From: Burkholderiales bacterium
Lineage (GTDB): Bacteria > Pseudomonadota > Gammaproteobacteria > Burkholderiales > WYBJ01
Assembly: GCA_022841915.1 (NCBI GenBank)
Contig: JALHQN010000013.1
Location: 62,001-126,000 of the forward strand
Length of the DNA: 64,000 nt
Reading direction: 5' to 3'
This document shows positions 4,774 to 15,237 of this stretch, piece after piece. Each line of letters opens with the position of its first letter. Within the stretch, counting starts at the first letter, position 1. The notes below the pieces were generated by a model, which worked only from the letters and a program-made list of their open reading frames with translations, was not told the DNA's origin and ran no database searches. Both the position numbers and the translations under genes were made by a program.

Positions 4774-7700
4774 ATGACCTCGTCCCGAATCGATCTTCTT
4801 CCCGAGTCCCTAGAACGCCGCATTCTCATCATCGACGGCGCAATGGGCACCATGATCCAGACGTACAGCCTGTCCGAGGCAGATTATCGTGGGGAGCGCT
4901 TCGCCACGCATAGCGACGAGGTCAAGGGCAACAACGATCTGCTGACGCTCACGCAGCCGCACATCATTCGCGACATCCACGCTTCATACCTGGAAGCGGG
5001 CGCAGACATCATCGAGACCAACACGTTCAACTCGAACGCGCCCTCGATGGCCGACTACAAGATGGAGTCCCTGGTCGAGGAACTGAACTTGACTGCAGCT
5101 CGTTTGGCTCGTCAGGTGGCCGACGAGTTCGAGCGCAAGGATTCGAGCCGGCCGCGCTACGTGGCGGGTGTGCTCGGCCCGACCAACCGCACGGCGACGA
5201 TATCGCCGGACGTGAACGACCCGGGTTTTCGCAACATCACCTTCGATCAACTGGTCGATACCTATTCAGTGGCGGCCCGGGCCTTGGTGGAAGGCGGGGC
5301 GGACATCCTGCTGATCGAAACCATCTTCGATACGCTCAACGCAAAGGCGGCGATCTTTGCCGTGGAGACCTTGTTCGAACAACTCGGGCATCGGCTGCCG
5401 GTGATGATTTCGGGCACGATCACCGATCAGTCGGGCCGCACGTTGACCGGGCAGACGCCCGAAGCGTTCTGGAATTCTGTCCGGCACGCGAGGCCGCTCT
5501 CCATCGGGCTCAACTGCGCGCTGGGCGCAAAGATGATGCGCCCGTACATCGAGGAGCTGGCGCAGCTCTCCGATACGTTCGTGAGCGCGTATCCGAATGC
5601 AGGCTTGCCCAACCCGTTGGCGCCCACCGGCTACGACGAGTTGCCGGCCGACACCGCGGCATTGCTGCGCGATTTCGCCGATTCGGGCTTCGTCAACATC
5701 GTCGGGGGCTGCTGCGGGACGACACCCGCTCACATCAAGGCGATCGCGCAGACCGTGCGCGATCTGCCGGTGCGCCGGCGCCCGGCGATAGAGCGCAAGA
5801 CCCGCCTCTCCGGTCTGGAGCCGTTCAACATCGGCGACGATTCCTTGTTCGCCAACATCGGCGAGCGCACCAACGTCACCGGCTCCCGTGCATTCGCGCG
5901 CATGATCCTCGCCGGGGATTATGCCGAGGGCTTGTCGGTGGCGCGCCAGCAGGTCGAGAACGGCGCCCAGATGATCGACGTCAACATGGACGAGGCCATG
6001 CTCGACTCGGTCAAGGCCATGACCACCTTCCTCAACCTCATCGCATCCGAACCGGACATCTCCAAGGTGCCGCTCGTGATCGACTCGTCGAAGTGGAGCG
6101 TCATCGAGGCCGGGTTGAAGTGCGTGCAGGGCAAGGGCATCGTCAATTCGATCAGTCTGAAGGAAGGCAAGGACGAGTTCGTGCGGCAGGCGAATCTCGC
6201 GCGCAAGTACGGCGCCGCGGTCATCGTCATGGCCTTCGATGAAGACGGTCAGGCCGACACCCTGGAGCGCCGCATCGCGATCTGCAAGCGCTGCTATCAC
6301 ATCCTGGTCGACGAGGTCGGCTTTCCCCCCGAGGACGTCATTTTCGATCCCAACATCTTCGCCATCGCCACCGGGATCGAAGAGCACAACAACTACGCCA
6401 AGGATTTCATCGAGGCCACCCGCATCATCCGCCAGATCCTGCCCTACGCGAAGATCAGCGGCGGCGTCTCGAACGTGTCGTTCTCCTTCCGGGGCAACGA
6501 TCCGGTGCGCGAAGCCATCCACACGGCCTTCCTGTATCACGCCATCAAGGCGGGCATGACGATGGGCATCGTCAACGCCGGTCAGGTCGGCGTGTACGAC
6601 GACATCCCGAAAGACCTCCTGGAGCATGTCGAGGACATCATCTTCAACCGCCGACCCGACGCGGCCGAGCGCATGGTGACTTTCGCTTCGACGCTCAAGG
6701 GCGAGAAGAAGACCGAAGCGCAGGAACTGGCATGGCGCAGTGGCACCGTGGAAGAGCGCCTCACGCACGCCCTGGTGCACGGCATCGCGACCCACATCGT
6801 GCCCGATACCGAAGAGATCCGCGAGAAGCTGGGCAGTCCGCTCAAGGTGATCGAAGGGCCGCTGATGGACGGCATGAACGTCGTCGGCGATCTGTTCGGC
6901 GCCGGCAAGATGTTTCTGCCGCAGGTCGTGAAGTCGGCTCGCGTGATGAAGCAGGCAGTCGCTTACCTCGAGCCCTATCTCGCCGAGGAGAAATTGCGTT
7001 CCGGCGACAACAAGCCCAAGGGCAAGATGGTCATCGCCACCGTGAAAGGCGACGTTCACGACATCGGCAAGAACATCGTCTCGGTGGTGCTCCAGTGCAA
7101 CAACTACGAGGTGGTGAACCTCGGCGTGATGGTGCCTGCGCAGAAGATCCTGCAGGTGGCGCGCGAGGAGAAATGCGATGCCATCGGGCTGTCGGGGCTG
7201 ATCACGCCTTCGCTCGAAGAAATGGCGCATGTGGCGCGCGAGATGGAGCGCGAGGGCTTCGACATTCCGCTGCTGATCGGCGGCGCGACCACGTCGCGCG
7301 TGCATACGGCAGTGAAGATCGCGCCGCACTATCATGGGCCGGTCGTGTGGGTGCCGGACGCTTCGCGCAGCGTCGGGGTGTGCTCGAACCTGCTGTCCAG
7401 GGACTTGCGGGCCCCGTATCTGGCCGAGCTGAAGTCCGACTACGAGCGCATCCGCGAACAACACGCGCGCAAGCAGGGCCCGGGTCCGTTGCGCACCTTG
7501 GCCGAGGCACGCCATCACGGCTACAAGACGGACTGGAGCGATTATGTGCCGCCGCAGCCCGCGTTCGTGGGGCGGCGCGAACTGCGCGACTACGACCTGC
7601 GCGAACTTGCGCGCTACATCGACTGGGGCCCCTTCTTCCAGACCTGGGAGTTGTCGGGGCCGTATCCCAAGATCCTCGACGACGCGATCGTGGGCACGCA

Positions 7701-8472
7701 TGCCCGCGAAGTGCTCGCCGAAGGGCAGGCCATGCTGGAGCGGATCATCACGGAGAAGTGGCTCACGGCCAACGGCGTGGTGGCCATCTATCCGGCGAAC
7801 AGCGTCAACGGCGGCGACGACATCGAGATCTATGCCGACGAGCGCCGCGAGCAGCCGATCATGACCTGGCACAACTTGCGCCAGCAGACCGTGAAGGCAC
7901 CGGATCGCTTCAACTGGTGTTTGGGCGACTTCATCGCGCCCAAGGGCTCGGGCGTCAAGGATTACGTCGGCGCCTTCGCCGTCACGGCGGGACTCGGCAT
8001 CGACGAGCGGGTGCTCGCGTTCGAGCAGGCGCACGACGATTACAACTCGATCATGCTGAAGGCGCTGGCCGATCGGCTGGCCGAGGCGTTCGCCGAAGCC
8101 CTGCACGAGCGGGTGCGCAAGGAATTCTGGGGCTACGCCAAGGATGAAGCAATGAGCGTGGAGGAACTGGTGCGCGAGGGTTATCGCGGCATCCGTCCTG
8201 CGCCCGGCTACCCGGCCTGCCCGGACCACACGGAGAAGGGTCCCTTGTTCGACATGCTGGATGCGCCCGCGCTCGGGATCACCTTGACCGAATCCTTCGC
8301 CATGTGGCCTGCATCCTCGGTAAGCGGCTTCTATTTCTCGCATCCGCAATCGACTTATTTCGCCGTCGGTCGGGTCGGCAAGGACCAGATCGAGGACTAT
8401 GCGACGCGCAAAGGCATGACGGTGGAAGAAGTCGAGCGTTGGCTGGCCGCCCATCTGGCATACCAGGGCTGA
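4774..8472 (+). CDS. metH: cobalamin-dependent methionine synthase
   Basis: Full-length 1232 aa; [12 protein letters not shown] zinc site, [11 protein letters not shown] pterin domain, [11 protein letters not shown]12-binding motif, C-terminal activation domain. Confidence 0.98.
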
Positions 8473-8956: not shown

Positions 8957-10294
8957 ATGAACAGGGCGCTGGTTTGGAAGCTCGTCGCCATCATGGCGCT
9001 GACCTTGGGGCTGGTCGTGCCGCTGCAGATGACCGAAAGCTTGATCGAGGAGCGGCGAGCGGTGCGCAACCAGGTGATGCAGGATATCGCGCAAAGCGGC
9101 ACTGCGGCTCAGCGCATCGACGGGCTGGTGCTGGTGCTGCCTTGCACCGATCGATACGAGGAGACGGAAACGCTCGACAACGGACGCAGCATCCTGCGCG
9201 TGCGCATGCGCCCCTGCGATGTTCACGTGCTGCCCAAGAAGCTGCGCATCGAAGCCGAGCTGACGACCGACGTGCGGCATCGGGGAATCTACCAGGCGCT
9301 CGTGTATCGCAGCGCTTCGGATCTCGATGCGGTCTTCGACGTGCCGGCGCATCCGACACCGGCCTCGGTGCAGCGCACGTGGGGGGCGCCCCGACTGGTG
9401 CTGGGTATCGGCGATCTGCGCGGCATTCGCAACACCCCGACGGCAACCTGGAACGGCTCCAGCGTAGCGTTCGAAGCGGGCACCGGTCAGGCGCCCTGGG
9501 CTCGGGGCATACAGGCGGGCGTGCCGATCGAGCCGCGGATCGGCGGCGTGGCGAGGCTCGCCATGAAGCTCGATCTCGCCGGCATGGACCGCCTGGAGAT
9601 CGTCCCCGCAGCGAACGAAGTCGAGGTGAAGATGCGCTCGGCCTGGCCGCACCCGAGCTTCATCGGCCGCTTTTCACCCGATACCCGGGCCGTCGATGCC
9701 AGCGGCTTCGAAGCGACCTGGCGCACGACGGGCCTGGCCACCAATATTCAGGATGCCTTTCAACGCTGCGCCGGGGGCAAGTGCGAGGAATATTCCAATA
9801 GCGTGCTCGGGGTGACGCTGCTGCAGGGTGTCGATGTGTACCAGAAGGCTTACCGTGCGGTTCATTACGGCTTCTTGTTCGTCGTGCTCACCTTTGCCGT
9901 GTTCGTTCTCTTCGAGGTTCTGGCGGGCCTGCGCGTGCATCCCATCCAGTACGGGTTGGTCGGCATTGCGCTGACTGCGTTCTACGTGCTTCTCATCGCG
10001 CTGGCCGAGCATGTCGCGTTCGGTTGGGCCTATTCGCTCGCGGCCGCGGCTTGCGTGACCTTGATCGGCGCGTACTCGCGTTTCGTGCTCGGTTCGTCCC
10101 GGCGCGCAGGCTCGATGGGAGTGCTGATGAGCCTGCTGTACGGCTCGCTGTATCTCGTGCTGGGCTCGGAGGATTACGCGCTGCTGATGGGCGCCCTGCT
10201 GCTCTTCTTCATATTGGCTGCTTTCATGCTGGCGACGCGGCGGCTCGATTGGTACGCACTGCCATCGCGCGCAAACCCGGCAGCTGCAGGGTAA
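8957..10294 (+). CDS. creD: CreD-family inner membrane protein
   Basis: Characteristic long extracytoplasmic domain followed by C-terminal TM segments (FEVLAGLRVHPIQYGLVGIALTAFYVLLIALAEH). Confidence 0.9.
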   Translation: MNRALVWKLVAIMALTLGLVVPLQMTESLIEERRAVRNQVMQDIAQSGTAAQRIDGLVLVLPCTDRYEETETLDNGRSILRVRMRPCDVHVLPKKLRIEAELTTDVRHRGIYQALVYRSASDLDAVFDVPAHPTPASVQRTWGAPRLVLGIGDLRGIRNTPTATWNGSSVAFEAGTGQAPWARGIQAGVPIEPRIGGVARLAMKLDLAGMDRLEIVPAANEVEVKMRSAWPHPSFIGRFSPDTRAVDASGFEATWRTTGLATNIQDAFQRCAGGKCEEYSNSVLGVTLLQGVDVYQKAYRAVHYGFLFVVLTFAVFVLFEVLAGLRVHPIQYGLVGIALTAFYVLLIALAEHVAFGWAYSLAAAACVTLIGAYSRFVLGSSRRAGSMGVLMSLLYGSLYLVLGSEDYALLMGALLLFFILAAFMLATRRLDWYALPSRANPAAAG

Positions 10295-10394
10295 CGAGCC
10301 TTTTGCTCCCGGTTCGATCGGCTGCGATGGAGGCTATACTCGCAGCCGAATCGATCCTGATCGGGAGGCTGACCATGCATGGGCAAGCGCTGCG

Positions 10395-11195
10395 ATGAAC
10401 GAGCATGCGGGCGCGATGCCGTCTCGGATGGCCGATCTGTTGCGGGCGCTGGTTGCCCCGAGGTCGGGCGAAGCGAGCTGCGAGGGTCTGTCCGAACTGC
10501 TGTCTGATGCGGCGACGCGACGCACGTACGACGCGATTCATGGCGCTGTGCCGTTTGCGGGCAGTGTCAGCGTCGGCAGTCTTCCGGCCGACGTGCGCAC
10601 CCTGGCTCGCTCCCGACGCAGCGACCTTGTCGGCATCGCCTCGGCGCTTTGGGCGCTCGCGCCGGCGGGACGCGCAGCCTTGCTGGTTCCCGAGAGCGTC
10701 CTCGACAGCACGACCCAAGCTCACCGGCATCTACGTCGCCACTTGATCGAATCAGGACGTCTGCAGGGTGTGATCCGGCTTGCGGCAGGCTGCTACAAGC
10801 CGCGCTCGGCTGCTGTCATCCTGATGCTCGGTGAAACCGGTGCGCTGTCGCTCTGGTGCTACGAGATGAGCGAAGCCCGCGAACTGCAGCCTGCGGTCGA
10901 TGTTTCCGCCGTCGGGGGCTCTGTGTCCGTCGCCACCGTGCCCGAAGTCGTCGCGCGTTGGCACGACCGCGCCGATAGTGGCCTGCTCGCTCAGCCGCAC
11001 GTCGCCAAGGTCTTCCGCGTGCCGTGGACCGAGGTGGTCGCGGCCGGATTCGATCTGGCGTTCGATCGCTACCGGCCCTCGGAGCCCGTGCCGGCGCAGC
11101 CCGTGCCGCGACCGCACGAAATCCTGGCGGAACTGGCGGGGATGGAAGCCGAGATTCTCCAAGGCCTTCGCGATCTTGCAGGCTTGCTCAAGTGA
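10395..11195 (+). CDS. truncated HsdM-like (N-6 DNA methylase) C-terminal protein without catalytic motif
   Basis: GRAALLVPESVL...LIESGRLQGVIRLAAGCYKPRSAAVILML and AAGFDLAFDRYRP...HEILAELAGMEAEILQGL resemble the HsdM C-terminal half; no NPPY/NPPF and no SAM-binding motif I. Confidence 0.65.
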   Translation: MNEHAGAMPSRMADLLRALVAPRSGEASCEGLSELLSDAATRRTYDAIHGAVPFAGSVSVGSLPADVRTLARSRRSDLVGIASALWALAPAGRAALLVPESVLDSTTQAHRHLRRHLIESGRLQGVIRLAAGCYKPRSAAVILMLGETGALSLWCYEMSEARELQPAVDVSAVGGSVSVATVPEVVARWHDRADSGLLAQPHVAKVFRVPWTEVVAAGFDLAFDRYRPSEPVPAQPVPRPHEILAELAGMEAEILQGLRDLAGLLK

Positions 11196-12364
11196 TGCTG
11201 TCCGCAGTGGACGCTGGGGCGCGCGTGTCGCTCGCCGGTCTGATCGCCGCGCCGCCGGTCTTCGCAGCGGGCGGGGCGGAGGTCGTCGACAGCTACGACA
11301 TGAAGGCCTTCGAGTGCGGCGTGCCCAGCCTCCGTGCCGCGATCGAGCTGGGTGAGGTCAGGCAGCTCGAACCCGGGGATATCTTGCTGTCGCGGTCGGC
11401 GAAGGTTCCTCGCCGTGCCTGGGTGGTCGGCGAAAACAAGGGAAGACCCCAAGTTGCGTCGAAGGACTGGCTGATCGTGCGCAGCGAGGGTTTCGAGCCC
11501 GCGTATCTGCGCCATCTGCTCGTCAGCAACGACTTTCATCAGCAGGCGCGGCGGCTGGCACCCAACGCCGGGCGGGCGCAGGGATCGGGTACAGCGGCCT
11601 GGTCGAGCATCACGGTGCCGCAGCCGGTGCGCGAACAACAACGTCGGATCGCCGGTGCGCTCGACACGGCGGATGCGCTGCGCGCCAAGCGAGCGAGCAG
11701 CTTGTCCAGGTACCGAGCACTGCCGCACTCGCTGCTGAACGATGTCTTCGGCGCGACGCCGCAGACCGCATTTCCCCGGGTGCCGCTCGCGGAACTGTCC
11801 GCCGAGCCGGTGCGCAGAGGAATCGACCTCGCACTGCTGGACAGCGGACGCTTCCCCGTCGTGCGGGCGGGCGATGTTCTGGACGATACGGTGGATCCCG
11901 CACACTGTCGGTATGTGGCGCACTCCGACGAGGCACTGGCGCGGAGCGCATTGTCCGACGGCGACATCGTGCTCGCTCGTGATCCTGGCGGTTCGGGCAA
12001 GGTGGGCGCCGCAATCGTCTATCCGGGGAACGCAGTTTGGTTCCTCCATGCTCGCGTCTATCGGCTGCGCATCGACGGGCTGCTTGCCTGCCCGGAGTAT
12101 GTGCGTGCGATCCTGGCGACGGCATGGGGGCAGCAGGGCCTCTTGCAAGCGTGGCGAGAAGCCGATCCGCGCACGCGCGTCGATCGACGTATCGAGGCGC
12201 TTGCCATACCGCTGCCTGCGCTGTCGCTGCAGCAGGTGTTCGTGGAGCGTGTGCTGGCGGCCCGGCGGCTGCAAGCGCGCATGCTCGCTTCATCCGAGCG
12301 ACTCGACGTGCTGTTGAACACGCTGCGCAATCTCGCCTTTCGAGGGGAATTGCCCCCCGGTTGA
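11195..12364 (+). CDS. type I restriction-modification specificity subunit (HsdS-like)
   Basis: Two halves with GDILLSRS / GDIVLARDPGGSG TRD-type motifs, PQPVREQQRRIAGALDTADALRAKR coiled-coil spacer; ATG 11195 overlaps the upstream stop (TGATG). Confidence 0.8.
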   Translation: MLSAVDAGARVSLAGLIAAPPVFAAGGAEVVDSYDMKAFECGVPSLRAAIELGEVRQLEPGDILLSRSAKVPRRAWVVGENKGRPQVASKDWLIVRSEGFEPAYLRHLLVSNDFHQQARRLAPNAGRAQGSGTAAWSSITVPQPVREQQRRIAGALDTADALRAKRASSLSRYRALPHSLLNDVFGATPQTAFPRVPLAELSAEPVRRGIDLALLDSGRFPVVRAGDVLDDTVDPAHCRYVAHSDEALARSALSDGDIVLARDPGGSGKVGAAIVYPGNAVWFLHARVYRLRIDGLLACPEYVRAILATAWGQQGLLQAWREADPRTRVDRRIEALAIPLPALSLQQVFVERVLAARRLQARMLASSERLDVLLNTLRNLAFRGELPPG

Positions 12365-12376
12365 CGAGTCGGCGCC

Positions 12377-14548
12377 TCAACCGGGGTCGCTGACCAAGCG
12401 AGGCAGGTGGACGACGACTTCGACCCCCTCGACGTCGGTGCGGTCGTGCGCCGCCACCTTGCCATGATGAAAATCGACGATCAGCTGCACGATGTACAGA
12501 CCCAGGCCCAAGTGAGGTTCATCGCCCGCCGTCGGAGGGCGCACCGACGCCATCGATTGGAACAGTCGCGCCTTCATCTCGGGCGGCAGCCCGGGGCCGA
12601 CGTTGCGCACGGTCAACACCGCATGCTGCGACCCGGCCTGCAGCTCGACTTCGATCGGCTGGTCGCCGCGGGTGAAGTCCACGGCGTTGGAGATGAGCTT
12701 GTCGAGCATCTGCGCGATGAGATCGGGCACGCCGCTGAGCATCACCGGCGGGTCCTGCGCGACGAGCTCGAAGCGCTTGGGTGCATAAGCGATGCGGTAG
12801 CCTTCGACGCAACCGCTCACCACTGCCCGCAGGTCGAATCGCTCGCGTTCGACGTCTCGCATCATGCGCTCCAGACGCGTCGCTTCCGTCATGCGCGTAA
12901 TGATGGTCGCGAGTCGCGCGAGCCCCTGCTCAGCGCGCGTGACATACACGTCCGCCTCCGAGGGCAGCGCGCTCAACTTCAGATTCTCCAGCGATGAGCG
13001 GACCACGGTGATCGGCGTGCGCAGTTCGTGAGAGAGCCGGGTCGCGAGGCTTTCGAGATACTGCGTGTATTGGGCCAGGCGATCGAGCGCACTGGAAAAA
13101 CTGCGCGACAAGTCCCCGAGTTCGTCGCGCGCCGAGGAGCTTGCGGTGACCGCGCGCAACCGGCCCGCCGAGTCGATCGCCTGCTCGGCTTCGTCGCGCA
13201 GACGGCGGATGCGGCTCGCGAGGCGGGTGGCGAACACGAACAGCGCGATCCCGACGAGAAGGAAGGAGCCCAGCGCGAGGGAGAGCAGCCGCTCGATCAG
13301 ACGCTGGCGCACGGCCAGCACGCCCTGGGTGGTCTCCTCGACGATGACCGCGCCGATGACGCGCTCGTCCGCCCACACCGGATGCGCGCTGGTGAGAATC
13401 TCGATGGGCGTGTCGTCGATGTGCCGGCGGGCCCCGGCCACCCGCCCGGACAAGGCGACATCGGCCTCTGCGCCGCGATACAGGGATACGTACGATTCTG
13501 GCTCGACGCTCAGTGTGGGGGCGGGCGGAATGACATAGTGGTAAAGCGGTCGCAGCCATGCTTCGGCGCGGCCGAGAAGGCTCTGCGAGTCGCCCGCTTC
13601 GTTGGGTTGCGGGGATTCTGCCGTGCTGCGCAGGCTGCCGCTCCGAGTCACCAGACGGCGGTCGGCAGCGATGATCCAAACCCGCGTACCCGGCCGAGCC
13701 AGCGAGCGCACGATCTGTACGGCTTCCGGAGGCGGCACCATTGCCGTACCCAGGCTCTCGCGACCTTCGGGACCGATGGAGCCGACGATGGAGCGAATGC
13801 TGCGGCTTTCCCGGTCGTCGACATCGGCATAGGCGAATCCCAGACGCGGGCCGACCATGGCGCGCGGCAGCCGAAGTTCGAGGTTGAAGCCAGAGTCTGT
13901 CTCGCGCCAGAAGCCCTGGATGCGCGGCTCCGGGTGTGCTCGTGCAGGGCTCGTGGCGTCGGTCGGCACCTGAAACGCGGCGACCGGTCCCGCCGAGCGC
14001 GCCGAAACGATGTAACGGCGCAGTTCGCCCCAGGGAGTATGCAAGCCGATGCGCACATGATCTGCGGCATCGACGCGTGGGTTGTCCGGATCTCGATAGA
14101 CGAGGTCTTCGTCGATGACTTCGAATACTGCATAGACCTGGTTGTCGTAGACCCCCAGCGCGTGCCAGAGCGTAATGGGGGCAACCTCGATATCCGCGGC
14201 TTGCTCCACCACATGTTCGCGCCCGAGCGCTCTGAGTTCCACGCCTTGCTGCATCCAGTCGTCGAGGTCGCCGTCGAGTTCGATCGGCCGGGACAACTTG
14301 TAGGCGACGATCGCATTCGATGCATCCGCGTGCGGGTCGCGGCTCGGTGCATGGAACAGGCTCGGGCGATCGTTCAGCGCGGTGGCAATGGCGCGTGCGG
14401 TATTGAGCACGGCGGCCTCCTGGTTCTCGCGCAGGATGCTCTCCAATTCGCCGGCGTAGAGGTATGCGATCCAAGGAATGGCGAGCAGCACGCACGAAAC
14501 GAGCAGCATCTTCGCCCGGATGCTCAAGCCCAGGCGCAGTCGCTTCAA
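12377..14548 (-). CDS. sensor histidine kinase with CBM9-like extracytoplasmic domain, Pds (proteobacterial dedicated sortase system)-type
   Basis: LSHELRTPITVVRSSLENLKL H-box, HAMP-like region, ATPase domain; IELDGDLDDWMQQG...YAVFEVIDED extracytoplasmic domain; TTG start at 14548 overlaps the regulator stop (TTGA). Confidence 0.82.
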   Translation of the reverse strand: MKRLRLGLSIRAKMLLVSCVLLAIPWIAYLYAGELESILRENQEAAVLNTARAIATALNDRPSLFHAPSRDPHADASNAIVAYKLSRPIELDGDLDDWMQQGVELRALGREHVVEQAADIEVAPITLWHALGVYDNQVYAVFEVIDEDLVYRDPDNPRVDAADHVRIGLHTPWGELRRYIVSARSAGPVAAFQVPTDATSPARAHPEPRIQGFWRETDSGFNLELRLPRAMVGPRLGFAYADVDDRESRSIRSIVGSIGPEGRESLGTAMVPPPEAVQIVRSLARPGTRVWIIAADRRLVTRSGSLRSTAESPQPNEAGDSQSLLGRAEAWLRPLYHYVIPPAPTLSVEPESYVSLYRGAEADVALSGRVAGARRHIDDTPIEILTSAHPVWADERVIGAVIVEETTQGVLAVRQRLIERLLSLALGSFLLVGIALFVFATRLASRIRRLRDEAEQAIDSAGRLRAVTASSSARDELGDLSRSFSSALDRLAQYTQYLESLATRLSHELRTPITVVRSSLENLKLSALPSEADVYVTRAEQGLARLATIITRMTEATRLERMMRDVERERFDLRAVVSGCVEGYRIAYAPKRFELVAQDPPVMLSGVPDLIAQMLDKLISNAVDFTRGDQPIEVELQAGSQHAVLTVRNVGPGLPPEMKARLFQSMASVRPPTAGDEPHLGLGLYIVQLIVDFHHGKVAAHDRTDVEGVEVVVHLPRLVSDPG

Positions 14549-15237
14549 CTGGACTTCCAGCGGTAGCCCATGCCGTACACCGTCTCGATGCAGTCGAAGG
14601 CGGGGTCGTGCTCGAGAAACTTGCGGCGGATCCGCTTGATGTGGGAGGTGACGGTCGTGTCGTCGACCACCATCCGGGCGTCGCGCATCAACTGATCGCG
14701 ATGCTTCACATGGCCCGGATGGCGGGCGAGCGCATGCACGATCCATAGCTCGGTGACGGTCAAGTCGACGGGCGTGTCGTTCCAGCCCACGCGCATTCTG
14801 CTCAGGTCGACTCTGAGCTTGCCCCGTTCGAGCACATCGTCGCCGGTGGCCGGGCCTTGCGTGGCGTCCAGGCGTCTGAACAGTGCCGCGATGCGAGCCG
14901 ACAGGTGCGGCAGGCTGATGTCCTTGGTGAGGTAGTCGTCCGCACCCATGCGCAAGCCCGACACCGTATCGATGTCGCTGTCGCGTGCGGTCAGAAAGAT
15001 GATCGGGATGGTGGCGGACATCGCCCGCAGCGACCGACACAACTCGAAGCCGCCGTCGATTTCATCCGCGAGTCCGATGTCGATGATGGCGAGGTTGGGC
15101 AGACGGCTCTCGAACGCGCGCATGGCTTCATGGCGCGTGCCGTAACCGGTTACTTGATACCCTTGCCTGCGTAGCGCGTCTGCGTAGTTCTCACGGATGG
15201 ACGGGTCGTCCTCGACGATAGCGATCCAGCGACTCAC
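14545..15237 (-). CDS. response regulator, OmpR-type, Pds-type partner
   Basis: IAIVEDDPSIRENYADALRRQGY, LTARDSDIDTVSGLRMGADDYLTKD, winged-helix C-terminus VTSHIKRIRRKF...VYGMGYRW. Confidence 0.9.
   Translation of the reverse strand: MSRWIAIVEDDPSIRENYADALRRQGYQVTGYGTRHEAMRAFESRLPNLAIIDIGLADEIDGGFELCRSLRAMSATIPIIFLTARDSDIDTVSGLRMGADDYLTKDISLPHLSARIAALFRRLDATQGPATGDDVLERGKLRVDLSRMRVGWNDTPVDLTVTELWIVHALARHPGHVKHRDQLMRDARMVVDDTTVTSHIKRIRRKFLEHDPAFDCIETVYGMGYRWKSS

Follow-up and report, generated by a model that had tools for sequence, protein, structure and literature searches.

A truncated HsdM kept with its HsdS in one genus of Burkholderiales: a possible sequence-specific DNA-binding pair

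A truncated HsdM coupled to a specificity subunit

The window (the whole stretch of 64 000 nucleotides analysed here) carries on its forward strand two overlapping genes related to type I restriction–modification (RM) systems. The first, M′ (10395..11195, + strand, 266 amino acids in length), is a C-terminal part of HsdM from which the catalytic motifs have been lost, and the second, S (11195..12364, + strand, 389 amino acids in length), is an HsdS-like specificity subunit; the start codon of S overlaps the stop codon of M′ (TGATG) and both frames are open, their extents being those given in the first-pass annotation of this DNA. Its reading of the first frame as only the C-terminal part of HsdM agrees with the profile searches, in which PF02384 matched M′ at profile positions 123–229 of 311 only (E 3.9e-6) and the PADLOC model MTase_I PDLC03021 covered it at positions 261–489 of 491 (E 3e-27). 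Aligned to an HMM of full-length HsdM relatives, M′ corresponds to model positions 268–512 of 512 (i.e. the C-terminal ~245 residues), so that the N-terminal HsdM domain is missing and SAM-binding motif I, located upstream of position 268, has no counterpart, as had been claimed. The accompanying claim that the NPPY/F motif is absent is right as to the loss of the catalytic residues, but motif IV can still be recognized in a degenerate form (10545..10556, + strand), with AVPF replacing NPPF and the 'LANPPFAGSL' of the relatives lying opposite 'IHGAVPFAGSV' in the window M′ (GAVPFAG versus ANPPFAG). All four M′ copies detected in this study (see below) carry [AS]VPF in place of the canonical [ND]PP[FY], whereas NPPF is intact in nearly all full-length HsdM relatives. 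That M′ would be non-catalytic and unable to methylate DNA is well supported by these alignments.

The AlphaFold2 model of M′ (mean pLDDT 80, pTM 0.75) found its best structural matches in the HsdM subunits of known type I enzymes; profiles, tree and model all indicate that the C-terminal core of M′ shares descent and fold with HsdM and the N6-adenine DNA methyltransferases. The C-terminal helix (residues 240–265; 11112..11189, + strand), a putative M–S assembly helix, is the best conserved segment of the protein, with 11 of the last 16 M′ residues invariant across the four species and pLDDT values of 94–98. At the other end, the first ~45 residues may represent a worn motif X/motif I region. 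The evidence is suggestive only: a stretch that may derive from the helix of motif X and the strand of motif I (residues 9–31; 10419..10487, + strand) was placed identically in two M′ sequences, with equally good placements in 8/500 and 5/500 shuffles and an hhalign E of 0.11, and the model shows a helix (10–20) and a strand (26–29) at the corresponding positions.

The PADLOC Specificity_I profile spans nearly the whole of S (E 4e-44), for which EcoKI S was also a match, and the AlphaFold2 model (pLDDT 85; match to PacII S with a TM of 0.71) displays two TRDs and two long helices. From the N-terminus these are TRD1 (residues ~8–142; 11216..11620), a central conserved helix (residues 146–185; 11630..11749), TRD2 (residues ~189–340; 11759..12214) and a C-terminal conserved helix (residues 343–382; 12221..12340), all on the + strand, with both helices defined from alignment and model. 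The two-TRD HsdS of the first-pass annotation therefore stands for the window species (PADLOC, model) but not for the other three (G001, G002 and G003), where S is 232–242 amino acids in length and consists of TRD1 and both conserved helices, TRD2 being gone; the alternation of two TRDs with two long conserved helices that characterizes HsdS is thus present in the window S and lacking in its relatives, even though the helices themselves are retained.

TRD1 is present in all four species and diverges no faster than the helices (39–50% versus 39–53% between the more distant species). For comparison, complete systems with HsdM proteins 76–87% identical have S subunits only 29–46% identical. A TRD1 that keeps pace with the rest of S, and that shows no swapping, fits what would be expected of a fixed target. 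A pattern search for phage relatives of S returned none. Among the loci compared, the full-length S nearest to that of the window lies on the viral contig IMGVR_UViG_3300004643_000074 (L071, 834–1997; phmmer 141 bits), where it adjoins an HsdM.

Genomic setting

The window pair is flanked by CreD and a two-component system, confirming the earlier reading. In all four genomes M′–S is located between metH and a histidine kinase–response regulator pair. The flank towards metH holds creD or a TctC-type gene, and the interval between S and the kinase contains a PIN-domain ORF in G001 and other genes in G003. In the G001 locus (L029), the PIN-domain-like ORF lies at 7579–8079, and the only part of creD listed beside M′ is a 149-amino acid C-terminal piece (9739–10188). 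The neighbouring two-component system of the window (12377–15237) matches the kinase and regulator of the 'proteobacterial dedicated sortase system' (TIGR03785, TIGR03787); no sortase (PF04203) was detected in any of the four genomes.

The HsdR that type I RM systems encode together with M and S is lacking at this locus, in line with the first-pass annotation: no HSDR_N domain was found on the window contig, and the five in the window genome lie on other contigs. No N-terminal HsdM remnant was detected in the window or in the 16–20 kb flanks of the relatives. Since the defining features looked for were not found, neither 'type I RM system' nor 'methyltransferase' is, as far as its sequence tells, an appropriate label for the pair. 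Its mode of action may well resemble that of the DNA-recognition core of such a system.

Distribution and origin

The family of the window genome was sampled by four genomes, all of one genus and all draft, including at least two MAGs. M′ was detected in all four (384–420 bits), and the pair, which the first-pass annotation had proposed to look for next to creD in other genomes, occupies one position in each of them. Across 396 further genomes from the order, the best match scored 163 bits, and nearly all matches there are full-length HsdM proteins of ~480–650 amino acids. Among ~780 further genomes from the order and class, no M′-clade fragment was found; besides full-length HsdM, the searches returned only a few weak matches that were short or interrupted. 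Plasmids and phages yielded, among the matches listed, only methylases at ~33% identity or less. In the open-access literature we found no account of a truncated HsdM that is conserved, catalytically dead and paired with HsdS.

The tree places the four M′ sequences in one clade (100/100 support), the long stem of which arises within one HsdM subfamily, and this points to a single origin of the truncation. The parent family, PDLC03021, comprises full-length neighbours (L011–L013, L046) with 28–36% identity to M′ that are complete proteins of ~510–550 amino acids with NPPF intact. Between most of the species M′ and S are 41–50% identical, compared with 83–89% for MetH. The constraint on the pair is real but loose, and looser than on its neighbours, as both proteins evolve fast relative to MetH.

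Selection on the pair

Between the two closest species (G001 and G002), identity is 72% for M′ and 65% for S, with dN/dS values of 0.25 (95% CI 0.18–0.36) and 0.36 (0.25–0.51) respectively. Among the neighbouring genes used as controls, the response regulator gave 0.10, the histidine kinase 0.16 and MetH 0.15. Of the five non-coding frames, four had a dN/dS above 1 and every one contained stops; the remaining antisense frame gave 0.36 and 0.47, as expected where third positions coincide. Purifying selection on M′ covers both the core and the C-terminus. Retention of the pair under selection is well supported, and this selection postdates the loss of catalysis, since the truncated architecture is common to all four copies.

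These values bear directly on whether M′–S is an old RM system in slow decay, its frames still open because GC-rich genes gain stops slowly. The fast divergence of the pair and the loss of TRD2 in the relatives would be compatible with such a process, and a neutral simulation yielded only ~3 stops per gene at the G001–G002 divergence, a number that carries little weight in GC-rich DNA, so that the argument rests on dN/dS. Being frame-specific and well below 1 for both genes, dN/dS argues against decay, as do the architecture shared by four species, the absence of N-terminal remnants and the state of the other HsdM genes of G002, which are visibly partial or interrupted alongside an intact M′–S. 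We therefore disfavour simple decay and consider it very improbable. Neither HsdM remnants upstream nor frameshifts in the relatives, which the first-pass annotation had named as signs of decay, turned up, and its view that the intact frames reflect repurposing is strengthened by the single origin, the one locus in four of four genomes and the purifying, frame-specific selection.

Proposed function

Sequence-specific DNA binding is, by prediction, the most likely function of M′–S. The reading that we favour, with a probability of about 0.58, is that the pair forms a domesticated, non-catalytic complex that binds DNA sequence-specifically. M′–S would derive from a type I DNA methyltransferase and be catalytically dead, M′ having retained the latter half of the Rossmann core together with the C-terminal helices through which it docks on S, and having lost the N-terminal domain, SAM-binding motif I and the catalytic motif IV Asn-Pro. 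M′ would be translated in step with S and assemble with it, probably as M2S in the window species and as M2(half-S)2 in the relatives, and the complex would bind a fixed bipartite DNA target, acting as a regulator or as an occluder of sites. That this natural, vertically inherited dead methyltransferase has become a dedicated regulator that binds DNA sequence-specifically by TRD-based recognition within one bacterial lineage is put forward tentatively, at a little under even odds.

We infer complex formation from the conserved interface helices and from the literature. The M–S interface appears preserved, because no segment of M′ is better conserved than its C-terminal helix and the helices of S have been kept despite the loss of TRD2; deletion of the HsdM C-terminus has been reported to block assembly with HsdS (PMC6158711). 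Translational coupling across a 1-nt overlap is likewise found between the M and S genes of EcoKI (PMC3510504). The type I M2S enzymes (EcoKI, EcoR124I, PacII M1M2S, 5YBB) share with M′–S the HsdS fold, the C-terminal HsdM core and helices, the hsdM–hsdS order and this 1-nt overlap, but differ in having SAM motif I, NPPF, the N-terminal domain and an HsdR at the locus. The N-terminal domain of HsdM contributes to holding the DNA in known M2S enzymes. As this domain is missing in M′, the affinity of M′–S for DNA may be low; this, the loose constraint on a fast-evolving pair and the failure to find a target motif weigh against the favoured reading. The single-TRD S proteins of the other three species would have to dimerize to read DNA, and natural and engineered half-S subunits, which homodimerize and recognize symmetric targets (PMC3874165, PMC2877798), offer a possible model for this putative dimerization. 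The half-S methyltransferases (NgoAV, EcoR124I-NT, EcoDXXI truncations, AhdI) resemble the S of G001–G003 in having one TRD plus helices, but work with a full catalytic HsdM.

A single TRD in three species is also what might be expected if the pair had a role other than DNA binding, in which the HsdS coiled coil would form the basis of a protein scaffold or adaptor. Esub1 (PDB 8vsq/8vsr), known here by entry title, provides a precedent, a half-HsdS-like fold solved bound to the protein Prx (8vsr) with no methylase in the crystal. The retention of a globular and constrained TRD1 speaks against such a role, which we regard as quite improbable.

The main rival to sequence-specific binding by a self-sufficient complex is a dominant-negative effect, in which M′–S swaps subunits with resident HsdM, HsdS and HsdR, producing dead complexes that damp restriction or methylation, or that shield sites. 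Elsewhere in the window genome there are at least five HsdR genes accompanied by full HsdM and HsdS, so subunit exchange is possible there; G001 also encodes a full-length HsdM of the subfamily that gave rise to M′, and the preserved interface would permit such exchange. On the other hand, the other HsdM proteins of the window genome are distant from M′, the locus has housekeeping surroundings with no adjoining RM genes, and in G002, the genome of which is 87% complete, the pair is retained although no HSDR_N was found and the other HsdM genes are partial or broken, which counts for a complex that needs no partner. We consider this alternative unlikely. Improbable, in turn, is that a full-length HsdM encoded elsewhere uses S as an additional specificity subunit, M′ being a translational lead-in or chaperone and the pair still directing methylation. 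The fold and helices of S are intact and S is normally tied to M by coupled translation, as this would require, but no intact full-length HsdM was found in G002, and a mere lead-in would not need purifying selection on the M′ core and C-terminus.

The usual picture of RM genes is one of gain, exchange and loss. In this lineage the M and S subunits have both outlived catalysis, at one locus and under selection, a pattern pointing to a recognition module that has been domesticated. Should M′–S bind DNA, the TRD/HsdS fold would have acquired a transcription factor-like role, and the pair would be the natural equivalent of a dead methylase engineered for modular specificity. A scan for HsdM–HsdS pairs with a degenerate motif IV and lacking HsdR is suggested.

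Sequences upstream of M′

No target motif for M′–S was found. A 10-bp perfect inverted repeat with a 12-nt spacer (TCGGCTGCGA-N12-TCGCAGCCGA; 10318..10349, 5′ of M′) surrounds a TATACT box and is the sole copy in the window genome; inverted repeats of this length occur in 1.4% of random 100-bp segments of the window. It was dropped as a candidate target, being unique in the genome and missing upstream of the M′ genes of the relatives, and is at best a weak candidate for an operator or promoter. A sigma-70 scan detected no promoter upstream of M′; in G001 and G002, too, TATACT lies just 5′ of the M′ start. Downstream of the repeat, a mini-ORF (MHGQALR, 10375–10398) follows a GGGAGG sequence, and its stop codon overlaps the start codon of M′ (ATGA); it is a possible coupled leader for M′.
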